DNA from: Candidatus Nitrosocosmicus agrestis
GTDB lineage: Archaea; Thermoproteota; Nitrososphaeria; Nitrososphaerales; Nitrososphaeraceae
Reading direction: 5' to 3'
Assembly: GCF_008389435.1 (NCBI RefSeq)
Contig: NZ_VUYS01000019.1
Span: forward strand, 13,352-77,351
DNA: 64,000 bases
Shown: positions 19,904 through 42,846 of the stretch, in pieces
Layout: every line of letters starts with the position of its first letter
Position numbering within the stretch: the stretch's first letter is position 1
Notes under the pieces: generated by a model
What the model saw: only the letters and a program-made list of their open reading frames with translations
What the model was told of the DNA's origin: nothing
The model's database searches: none
Translations under genes and position numbers: made by a program

Positions 19904-20003
19904 TCATTTTCCTTAAAGAACAAAGCATTAATACTGTAATTACCTTAAAGCAAAAATAAACAATAAAATAAAAAATAGTAACCAAAATGGGCAGAAGAAG
20001 TAT

Positions 20004-21176
20004 TTGTGGGCTAAAAATCAAATGCCCATTTTACGCAAACTAGTACAGAAATACTCTCAAAACAATACTCTAAAGGGTTTAGACATAGGAGTATGTCTTC
20101 ACATAACCAAAGAAACATCTGTTTTAATAATGGGATTAAAGGAAACTGGTGCTAACGTATCTCTATGCTCTGCTAATCCTTTATCAACCAAAACTGAAGT
20201 TAGAGATTTTTTAAAGGAATCTGGTATTCGTATTTTTACAGATAAAAACTACAATTTAGATTCTTTTTATTCGAATATGGATAAGGTTCTCGACACAAAA
20301 CCTCAAATAATTATTGATGATGGTGGTGAATTACACAAAAAGGCAATAAGGAGAAAGGACCCGATTCGAGGTGGTACAGAGGAGACAACATCTGGGGTAA
20401 ATAGATTAAGAGCATTAAGCGACATCCCTTATCCCGTGATTGCCGTAAACCAATCCATTACGAAGCATTTATTTGACAACACTTTTGGAACTGGTCAAAG
20501 CATTATGGAATCTATAATCAAAACAACAAGTGTGTTGATTGCAAGTAAACGAATTGTAGTATGTGGTTATGGTTGGGTGGGAAAAGGTGTTTCAAAATAT
20601 GCTCGAGGTATGGGAGCGAAAGTTAGTGTTACTGAAACAAACCCTCTCAAGGCAATTGAAGCATATTTGGATGGCTTTGAGGTTGCTAGACTAGATAAAT
20701 TATTATCGCATAATGATATTTTCATTACATGTACTGGTCAAATAAACGTAATAGGAAGACAACACTTTGATTACCTAAAAGATGGTGCAATTTTATGCAA
20801 TGCCGGTCACTTTGATGTGGAAATTGATGTTAAAGCACTAGATGCTATTGATCCAGACGCTTTCGAGCCTGTACAGAACGTAACGTGCTACAAAATCAGA
20901 GATGGCCTGAATAAGAAAAAAGTATTTTTGCTTGCTCGGGGTAGAGTAGTAAATTTGATAGGTTCAGAGGGCAACTCCCCCCAAGTAATGGATCTCTCAT
21001 TTACTAATCAGTTTCTTTCCATAATCTATTTGTTTAAATATATGGAGAAGCTACCTAAGAAGGTATCACCACCACCTAATAAAATTCAGAATCAGATATC
21101 AAAACTTGCGTTACAAGCGTTTGGTTTGGATATTGATAATCTTACATTGCAGCAAAAAGAATATTTTAAGAGTTAG
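20004..21176 (+). CDS. ahcY: S-adenosylhomocysteine hydrolase
   Basis: Splits SAH to adenosine and homocysteine, relieving product inhibition of methyltransferases. Seen: GLDIGVCLHITKETSVLI near residue 24, IIDDGGELH, GGTEETTSGVNRLRAL (substrate loop), the Rossmann motif VVCGYGWVGKG near 180, and NAGHFDVEID near 265. From the only canonical start (TTG) the protein is 390 residues, shorter than usual, and begins at the WAK...MP motif normally preceded by about 20-30 residues. The in-frame DNA upstream stays open to 19932 and reads IKNSNQNGQKKYLWAKNQMP, which resembles the missing N-terminus. The true start may be an ATA at 19956 or 19968. NAD-binding residues are intact. Confidence 0.92.
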   Translation: MWAKNQMPILRKLVQKYSQNNTLKGLDIGVCLHITKETSVLIMGLKETGANVSLCSANPLSTKTEVRDFLKESGIRIFTDKNYNLDSFYSNMDKVLDTKPQIIIDDGGELHKKAIRRKDPIRGGTEETTSGVNRLRALSDIPYPVIAVNQSITKHLFDNTFGTGQSIMESIIKTTSVLIASKRIVVCGYGWVGKGVSKYARGMGAKVSVTETNPLKAIEAYLDGFEVARLDKLLSHNDIFITCTGQINVIGRQHFDYLKDGAILCNAGHFDVEIDVKALDAIDPDAFEPVQNVTCYKIRDGLNKKKVFLLARGRVVNLIGSEGNSPQVMDLSFTNQFLSIIYLFKYMEKLPKKVSPPPNKIQNQISKLALQAFGLDIDNLTLQQKEYFKS

Positions 21177-23202: not shown

Positions 23203-24106
23203 TATGGAAATACATATTTGATAAGGACAGACATTATACTCGTCGGCTGCTAAAGGTTTAGTTTGTGATCCCAACGATAATTAATACGACTTTGATCTCA
23301 TATCTAAAAGGAAGCAACTAAAGCATGTTTGATTTAAACGTTCAATTGATAACTAGATAATGATTTGCCAGATTTATTTCAGAAATTGAGTCAAATTTTA
23401 TTCTGATTTTTGAATAAGATTTATGCCAACTTAATTTTATTTACTGTGGTCCGATGTTGGATACATTTGGACATTAATTGACAGTATAAAATTTGAATAA
23501 ATTCTTATGTTCATTTTTCTGACTTCTGGATTATATGTGCATGAATTTCGCAATTGGCTAGTGGAACGATGAATAAAACTGAAGGAGATAACAAAGTCAA
23601 ATTCACATTTATCTGATAGAAATATAACTAAAGATAAAAAGCAGTACATTCAAGTTTCCAATCGGAAATTTTTCCGTTTTACTTATTTTGTTCAGATACA
23701 GAATTTATGTCAGATGCTATTTTGAAGCTAGGGTATGTAGATCGAGTGATACGATATACTTTGAAAAGTTTTATTATGCCAAAGATATAATTTATCCAAT
23801 TCATCTTTACATAACTTGACTTAGACTAATCCATCAAACCCAATTCAATCGACAAAGTTAGGAAAAAAAGGTTTGAAATAATTAAGCATAATATTAGGTA
23901 TCACAAGAAAATACAAAAACGGTAAGTGTAGTCAATATAAAGCATTCACAGGTTATTTGAAACCAAAAAAGTATTTTGCAGGATCATTTTTTTCCGAAAT
24001 GCTCACCTTACTATCAAGATTATCAGATCTAAGATTACATAGCAATCTATTTAATATTACTTGTATTATTTGGAATTGAACGATCACGAAGATAGCAACT
24101 AATATT
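23203..24106. other. gene-free A+T-rich interval
   Basis: About 900 bases between tRNA-Ile and the sensor kinase. I found no frame with coding character on either strand and no long repeat. The last 60 bases probably hold the kinase promoter (TATTTAATATTA near 24050-24061). Confidence 0.5.
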
Positions 24107-26023
24107 TTGATCTTAATTATCCCATTAATCGTTGGTTCTATAATTATGACATCAATACTTTCTCTCCAAAACATGTCAGGATTCAGAGCAAAATATCTTG
24201 AAATCTTTGAAAATTCAGGGAATCAATTGGTAGACAGGATCTTAGGTGAGATCAATAAAATGAAGTTTGATGTAATTTATCTTGCAGAACAACCAATACT
24301 TACTCAACCAAATGGATTGGCCAAGGAGCAGCTTGATTTGTTAAATAACTTTATTAAATTGGGGGAATCAAAATACGCTTCTGTAGCAATTTACAATTTA
24401 AGTGGATACAAGATCTTAGATACCACAGGAGAAGATCCCAACAAGAGTATTTCAAATACAAACATTTCAACCAGTTCAATCCCAAATAGGGTTTTTTTTA
24501 ATAGTACAATTGATAGAATATCAAATTACCAGAATGGATTTCATTTTACAGCACCGCTGTACAACAACCAAGATTTATTAACAGGATTAGTTGATGTGAG
24601 AGTATCAGATACTTTTATTTATAATATTGTCAATAACACGTTATTTTCCTTGAATAAAGAAGGAAACATTTACAAGTTTTCAATCGACTTGATCCATGAC
24701 AACGGTGCTTTAATATTTTCTACCAGATCAAATATTTTTGAAAGCCATGATTCGGGTATTTTGATGAATAATTTCAGTTTATCCGATAAGTCTAGCTTCG
24801 ATGGTAACTTTAGTAGAGGCAAATCTACACTGATATCCATTCCAATTCCAATAACATTAGCCAATCTCCAAACAAATGGAAACTGGACTATGTTACTAAA
24901 TAGCCAAAATATATCTTCAATGGAAGAATTTAATAAAACAGTAGGCGATTTTTTGATCGCTTCCTCAGTTATATTAGTTAGCGCGATATTAGTAACAGTG
25001 ATACTAGTAAATAAGATTACATTACCCATTACCCAGTTAAAGAATGTCGCGTTAGAATTAAGTAGAAATAAATTTGAAAAGGAAATCATGGTTGAAGGAT
25101 CAAGTGAAGTAAAGGATTTGTCGATTAGTCTAGAAGTAATGCGCAGAAATGTTGAAAACTCCAAAAAGAACCTAATACGTAAGGTCAAAGAACGTACCAG
25201 GGACCTTGAGAAAGCCAATGAACATTTGATAGCCAAAGAATCTGAAGTCAACATGATAAACGAGGAGCTACTAAAATCAAACAAAGCCAAAGAAGAGTTC
25301 CTCTCCATGGTTAGTCACGAGCTTAAAACCCCTATTACACCAATGAAATTATATATCGAAATGATGCTTAAAGGCAACAGAGCTGATGAGCTAAATGTAT
25401 TTCAGAAAAAAGCTCTAGGCATAGTTCACAAAAATATTCTAAAATTAGAGACAATAATTAACGATATATTTACAGTATATCGAATGGAATTAGACACTTT
25501 TAAAATTAGCAAGAAAATTACAAATGTTACCGAATTGATCGATTCTAATATGTCAGCTCTTTCTCCATTGATGCGAGATAAGAACATACAATTCAATTCT
25601 TCAGTGAGGACAAACAAGAAAGTATTATGTGATCCAGTGAGAATCAGTCAAGTATTCTTCAATTTAGTAAATAATGCTGTTGACCATGTCCCACAGGAAG
25701 GAGGAAGAATTGTCATCAAGGCTGAAGACGAAAATCAAGGTCAAACAAATATCCAAGCAACACTTGGGACAGACAACATAAACGAGAACGGCAAAGTGAT
25801 ATTCACTGTAGAGGACAATGGCATAGGAATCGCGGAGAGTAATATGGATTCACTTTTTAAAAAATTTTATCAAATAGATACTGGCCTCAGTAGGAAATAC
25901 GGAGGGACTGGATTAGGTCTAGCGATATGCAAAGGTATTATAGAATCACATGGAGGAACAATTTGGATTGATCCATTTTACAAGAACGGAGCCTCATTCA
26001 AATTTACCCTTATTTCTGCATAG
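24107..26023 (+). CDS. membrane-bound sensor histidine kinase
   Basis: 638 residues. TM1 is at the very N-terminus (about 2-20), an extracellular Cache-like sensor domain occupies about 25-280, and TM2 lies at 283-302. A HAMP linker (KITLPITQLKNVALELSR) is followed by a coiled coil (about 345-395), HisKA with MVSHELKTPITPM (phospho-His404), and the HATPase: NLVNNAVDHVP (N box), VEDNGIGIAES (G1), GGTGLGLAI (G2). The ligand is unknown. Only TTG is available as a canonical start, but the frame is open nine codons further up and the likely TATA element would start transcription near 24080. The cognate response regulator directly downstream is decayed. Confidence 0.92.
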   Translation: MILIIPLIVGSIIMTSILSLQNMSGFRAKYLEIFENSGNQLVDRILGEINKMKFDVIYLAEQPILTQPNGLAKEQLDLLNNFIKLGESKYASVAIYNLSGYKILDTTGEDPNKSISNTNISTSSIPNRVFFNSTIDRISNYQNGFHFTAPLYNNQDLLTGLVDVRVSDTFIYNIVNNTLFSLNKEGNIYKFSIDLIHDNGALIFSTRSNIFESHDSGILMNNFSLSDKSSFDGNFSRGKSTLISIPIPITLANLQTNGNWTMLLNSQNISSMEEFNKTVGDFLIASSVILVSAILVTVILVNKITLPITQLKNVALELSRNKFEKEIMVEGSSEVKDLSISLEVMRRNVENSKKNLIRKVKERTRDLEKANEHLIAKESEVNMINEELLKSNKAKEEFLSMVSHELKTPITPMKLYIEMMLKGNRADELNVFQKKALGIVHKNILKLETIINDIFTVYRMELDTFKISKKITNVTELIDSNMSALSPLMRDKNIQFNSSVRTNKKVLCDPVRISQVFFNLVNNAVDHVPQEGGRIVIKAEDENQGQTNIQATLGTDNINENGKVIFTVEDNGIGIAESNMDSLFKKFYQIDTGLSRKYGGTGLGLAICKGIIESHGGTIWIDPFYKNGASFKFTLISA

Positions 26024-42492: not shown

Positions 42493-42504
42493 AAAGTATT
42501 TATT
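42493..42504 (+). promoter_or_regulatory. TATA-like element upstream of aIF1A
   Basis: AAAGTATTTATT, centred near 42499. At the usual 26-27 base spacing transcription would start near 42525, about 10 bases before the ATA codon at 42535 and 43 or 58 bases before the TTG and ATG further in. This supports a start upstream of the canonical codons. Confidence 0.4.
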
Positions 42505-42534
42505 TCTTTTTTGGGCACTCAATATTGATTAGAA

Positions 42535-42846
42535 ATAGGTAAGCGCAAAGTTTTAAATGAAGCCCATTTGAAGGAGTTGGTTATGCCTCAAGAAGGGGAG
42601 CTGTTTGGAAGAGTCATCAAATTAGTTGGTGGAGACAACATTATTGTAAAGAGTTCAGATGGTAAAATTAGAACTTGCAGGATTAGAGGGAAAATAAAAA
42701 GGAGAATGTGGATAAGAGACAATGATTTGGTCTTAATCGCACCATGGGATTTTCAATCTGACAAGGCCGATATAATCTGGCGATATATCAGTGCTCATGC
42801 TGATAAGTTAGAACAAGAGGGCCATTTAGAAGGATTAAACAGATAA
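42535..42846 (+). CDS. eif1a: translation initiation factor aIF1A (probable ATA start)
   Basis: The S1/OB-fold factor that promotes initiator-tRNA binding and scanning/start recognition on the 30S subunit. Core: PQEGELFGRVIKLVGGDNII, CRIRGKIKRRMWIRDNDLVL and APWDFQSDKADIIWRY, all family-typical. Canonical starts are TTG at 42568 and ATG at 42583, but the frame upstream, open back to a TGA at 42526, encodes GKRKVLNEAHLKELV preceded by ATA. A basic GKRK(V) start is what I expect for aIF1A. I therefore place the start at this ATA (103 residues). From 42583 the protein would lack the basic tail. Confidence 0.85.
   Translation: MGKRKVLNEAHLKELVMPQEGELFGRVIKLVGGDNIIVKSSDGKIRTCRIRGKIKRRMWIRDNDLVLIAPWDFQSDKADIIWRYISAHADKLEQEGHLEGLNR

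Follow-up and report, generated by a model that had tools for sequence, protein, structure and literature searches.

In the archaeal family Nitrososphaeraceae the gene for translation initiation factor aIF1A appears to start with AUA or UUA, a presumably weak start codon that, in our judgement, fairly probably couples synthesis of the factor to the initiation machinery, either by feedback or as a fixed low ceiling. For archaea, translation is generally taken to begin at NUG. The window, a stretch of 64,000 nucleotides from Candidatus Nitrosocosmicus agrestis, holds an aIF1A frame (Table 1) that an earlier note on this DNA had described as open back to TGA, with ATA ahead of the first TTG and ATG, and the sequence bears this out: behind the stop it reads TTA GAA ATA (42535) GGT AAG CGC AAA GTT TTA AAT GAA and continues GCC CAT TTG (42568) AAG GAG TTG (42577) GTT ATG (42583). 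That ATA 42535 is the start codon, as the note had proposed, is strongly supported by sequence comparison, since AUA or UUA occurs family-wide, the outgroups have a canonical start in the same column, and coding selection sets in right after it. The product matches the Pfam family eIF-1a (PF01176; E 7e-20, above the cut-off), which places it among the OB-fold proteins, with the domain beginning ~20 residues past the ATA. Ahead of the domain lies the short basic N-terminal tail of the aIF1A/eIF1A class, which had also been expected and whose GKRKV is conserved and selected when read from ATA.

Table 1. Features of the aIF1A gene and its 5' region (positions in the window)
Feature	Position	Strand	Remarks
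aIF1A (e/aIF1A, OB fold) CDS	42535..42846	+	103 aa from ATA, MGKRKVLNEAHLKELVMPQEGE...GLNR; ends with TAA at 42846
ATA start codon (strongly supported)	42535..42537	+	ATA/TTA in each family copy read; outgroups have ATG/TTG/GTG at the same column
Codons 2-16 (GKRKVLNEAHLKELV)	42538..42582	+	conserved basic N-terminal tail under selection for the protein sequence, 5' of any fixed canonical start
In-frame TGA stop, precludes an upstream start	42526..42528	+	
In-frame TTG, likely annotator's choice of start	42568..42570	+	in 13/55 family sequences, not conserved
First in-frame ATG	42583..42585	+	in 44/55 family sequences, not conserved; R/K/L codons instead in several genera
TATA-like promoter element TATTTATT	about 42497..42504	+	conserved in the genus as AAAGTATTTATTT
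Predicted short 5' leader, ~6-8 nt, without Shine-Dalgarno	42527..42534	+	inferred from box spacing

The start column was compared over 15 genomes of the genus, 70 of the family (with extra regions) and 80 loci from a GTDB scan. All 55 distinct readable sequences of the Nitrososphaeraceae carry ATA (28) or TTA (27), never NTG; they represent ~54 genomes and 11 genera, paralogues included (count from the result tables), with one genome (G012) excluded for indels throughout its aIF1A gene. The observation is wider than first noted, extending from the ATA of one genome to all readable copies of the family. Paralogues in four genomes (G025, G026, G040 and G042) each retain NTA, and a divergent second copy in G032 has ATT GAC AAG at the start site. 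Sequencing error was ruled out, as ATA/TTA agrees over many independent assemblies, including single-contig ones.

The alignment with relatives that the earlier note had suggested came out in favour of this position: other Nitrososphaeria and Bathyarchaeia start aIF1A at the column of 42535, with ATG or TTG in the other families of the order and with TTG, ATG or GTG in Bathyarchaeia. These genes encode the same protein, share the start column and the GKRKVLNE/SE tail, and differ in the start codon itself. Furthermore, when 300 genomes of the class were searched for a non-NTG codon before GK(R/K)(R/K)V, aIF1A was matched only in the Nitrososphaeraceae (f1) and in a second family, f11, the remaining matches being unrelated sequences. 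The NTG version of the pattern found matches in the other families, and its nine matches in f1 belong to a different gene (MGKKRIIAE) at other locations. In the three genomes of f11 the aIF1A start is ATC, ATC and ATA, with no canonical in-frame codon back to the stop and with a GAGGG motif shortly 5' of it; TTG at codon 7 is a possible alternative start there. A single-gene tree did not join f1 and f11.

Across the family, comparison of sequences shows protein-level selection to start right after the NTA codon, with none upstream. Over codons 2-16, variability is 0.55 at third positions as opposed to 0.23 and 0.09 at the others, and pairwise codon differences are synonymous in 10407 cases and non-synonymous in 4051, while non-synonymous differences prevail in the other two frames; over the 45 nt upstream of the start all three positions are alike in variability (~0.62). 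Translation from a canonical codon downstream (42568, 42577 or 42583), with the stretch ahead of it conserved for other reasons, is highly improbable on these data: every copy does have an in-frame TTG or ATG close downstream, but the first such codon differs among genomes (codon 7, 12, 15, 16 or 17), with none fixed, and the strongly selected codons 2-16 are homologous to outgroup N-termini that begin at the same column. In 46 of the 55 sequences, the 60 nt upstream, or the stretch back to a stop, contain no canonical in-frame codon. A canonical start on either side was thus ruled out, no such codon being conserved at aIF1A, and so was entry by frameshift from another frame, as no upstream ATG is conserved.

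The third base of the start codon deserves separate consideration. On a FastTree gene tree, base 1 switched between A and T about five times and bases 2 and 3 not once, whereas the synonymous purine sites of 11 conserved Lys/Glu/Gln codons of aIF1A, taken for comparison, underwent 4-12 A/G changes each (mean 8.1). A return to ATG or TTG would take one transition, and none was seen in the family. Because base 3 is fixed at A while comparable A/G sites change, this comparison shows the third-base mismatch to the initiator anticodon to be maintained by selection.

How rare such starts are was assessed in stretches of G002, G003 and G042, using 460 orthologous pairs in 600 kb of G002/G003, followed by ~200 pairs formed with a further genus. 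Conserved coding sequence ahead of all canonical starts turned up in ~5 of the former and 5 of the latter. This handful consists of aIF1A and carA, a topoisomerase-like and a zinc-ribbon gene, and carB, where the cause is a broken frame and not a start; low-scoring candidates were mostly shadow ORFs, conserved DNA of other kinds or broken frames, not odd starts. The clearest case besides aIF1A, judged by sequence, is carA, whose ATT start (ATT CCN ACN) is strictly conserved in 26/26 parsed family loci (L273-L298), ~19 of which have no in-frame canonical codon upstream of the ATT in the displayed sequence. Within the window, aIF1A is the clear case and a sensor kinase (24080-26023, + strand) the weaker one, its conserved ITK(I/V)AT lying 5' of the first TTG, with ATC in the window and ATA in relatives; an odd start is possible for it. 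One could hold that start selection is generally relaxed in these archaea and that aIF1A is one of many drifting starts. We regard this as very unlikely, for despite the fixed ATT of carA and the ATA/ATC of the sensor kinase only few genes are affected, and base 3 of aIF1A is, contrary to drift, never G within Nitrososphaeraceae. Nevertheless, carA, the sensor kinase and perhaps guaA in one species also seem to have odd starts, so that some of the signal may reflect tolerance in general instead of regulation of aIF1A.

Further observations concern neighbouring cases. In guaA, G002 (concatenated stretch 379724-381265) reads ATA ACG GAC where a congener has GTA ATG GAC, so that the ATG is missing in one species, perhaps marking an odd start. 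The earlier note had ascribed a similar pattern to ahcY (19932-21176), and this was not supported: the N-terminus is variable among relatives, neither it nor the start being conserved between the genome itself and two relatives. No canonical start lies above TTG 20004. In carB, an insert of ~20-45 nt (by eye) with stops or a frame shift separates GGCGA from TTTGAC in nearly all Nitrososphaeraceae (loci L273-L302), including the genome studied here (L277, contig C15, just 5' of the window), and G029 (L288) lacks it. The bulge-helix-bulge-like fold of the insert marks it as a probable small intron of archaeal pre-mRNA, here within a protein-coding gene.

With regard to the 5' region, 318 conserved starts of the relative G002 (ATG 185, TTG 97, GTG 36) provide the reference. 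As an SD-like motif occurs at only 22 of them and TATA-like boxes of the same class peak at -32..-28, most transcripts look leaderless. The TATA-like element that had been seen upstream of aIF1A is real, and its onset at -38/-36 lies 6-8 nt farther 5' than this usual spacing, which predicts a leader of probably 6-8 nt; the description of the transcript as almost leaderless was roughly right as to its shortness, with the box standing farther out than usual. RNA folding across the aIF1A start gave no conserved structure, merely four weak pairs without covariation. A search allowing ≤1 mismatch found a single initiator-like anticodon stem in the genome, with anticodon CAU, and reassignment of the start through a special initiator tRNA was rejected on this ground. 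The 3' half of the initiator tRNA gene (L399 in this genome; also in G042) is apparently interrupted by an intron around the T-arm, perhaps the reason why tRNA searches missed the gene.

A change of the start at the RNA level, by A-to-I editing (AUI/UUI) or by splicing to an upstream AUG, seems to us most improbable. Editing would account for base 3 being always A in Nitrososphaeraceae, and the carB mRNA is apparently spliced in this family; however, A-to-I editing would be powerless on the ATC of f11, aIF1A has neither a conserved upstream ATG nor a variable insert, and we know of no A-to-I editing of mRNA in archaea.

In the model that we favour, the third base of an ancestral AUG or UUG start would have turned to A, and the CAU initiator tRNA would tolerate the resulting C-A mismatch. 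The mismatched AUA/UUA would then initiate weakly, its output set by the stringency of start-codon selection, and aIF1A synthesis would thereby follow how active the initiation machinery is. A point against the model is that UUA, with two mismatches to the initiator anticodon, would to our knowledge be weaker than any well-studied start. The loop could be an infC/IF3-like negative feedback, acting directly through aIF1A or routed via aIF1, and the minimal version would be a constant low limit to how much aIF1A is made. A throttle at the start codon is the likeliest role of ATA/TTA by analogy, probably as an infC-like feedback loop.

The analogy rests on bacterial infC, whose AUU or AUC start allows its product IF3 to repress its own production; in Streptomyces the codon is ATC, and annotators often choose a wrong start (PMC5472188). 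Both are initiation-factor genes whose non-canonical start is conserved and fails to pair with the initiator anticodon at base 3, as found here in 55/55 sequences with base 3 unchanged on the tree. Autoregulation of aIF1A in the manner of infC is plausible, as the third-base mismatch under selection fits it, and aIF1A may work like infC, to which we liken it by its start codon without assigning it to that regulatory class. In contrast to infC, aIF1A is archaeal and a homologue of IF1 rather than IF3, uses AUA/UUA rather than AUU/AUC, and has a short leader without SD, and its feedback is putative. Streptomyces sigR, whose GTC start is repressed by IF3, likewise employs a conserved non-canonical start as a regulatory device, but it is not an initiation-factor gene, and its regulation is experimentally proven (PMC5472188). 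As far as the citation in PMC6237735 goes, eukaryotic eIF1 is autoregulated through an AUG in poor context, and is on that account reminiscent of aIF1A as a start-selection factor with a suboptimal start site of its own, although there the codon is AUG, the flanks are poor and the factor is eIF1, not eIF1A. The aIF1 of Nitrosocosmicus (L117), the archaeal eIF1 homologue, starts with ATG.

The sign of the feedback is uncertain, because the demonstrated archaeal discriminator, which disfavours non-canonical starts, is aIF1 and not aIF1A (PMC6237735). Given that the basic N-tail of eukaryotic eIF1A promotes codon-anticodon pairing (PMC6412873), the loop may run via aIF1 or be a simple throttle. 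Indeed, AUA/UUA might merely lower aIF1A output to the right stoichiometry with no feedback through aIF1A or aIF1, a reading that is unlikely, yet worth serious consideration. It explains the same sequence evidence, and carA, a metabolic gene for which feedback from initiation fidelity would hardly be sensible, also has a fixed odd start. On the other hand, a low level could be attained by any weak promoter, and the conserved base-3 mismatch in an initiation-factor gene, together with the ATC/ATA of f11, is more easily understood as coupling to start selection. Tentatively, and short of calling it probable, we propose that archaea independently evolved a fidelity-coupled autocontrol of an initiation factor by a third-base-mismatched start, with the doubly mismatched UUA as a natural conserved start.

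No report of non-canonical aIF1A starts was found in the open-access library searched, and infC is the textbook case of bacterial initiation-factor autocontrol. If our model is true, aIF1A (and carA) are probably annotated too short by NTG-only gene callers, the family-wide AUA/UUA would give archaea a direct equivalent of infC, and the Nitrososphaeraceae would offer a natural substrate for testing start-codon discrimination in archaea.
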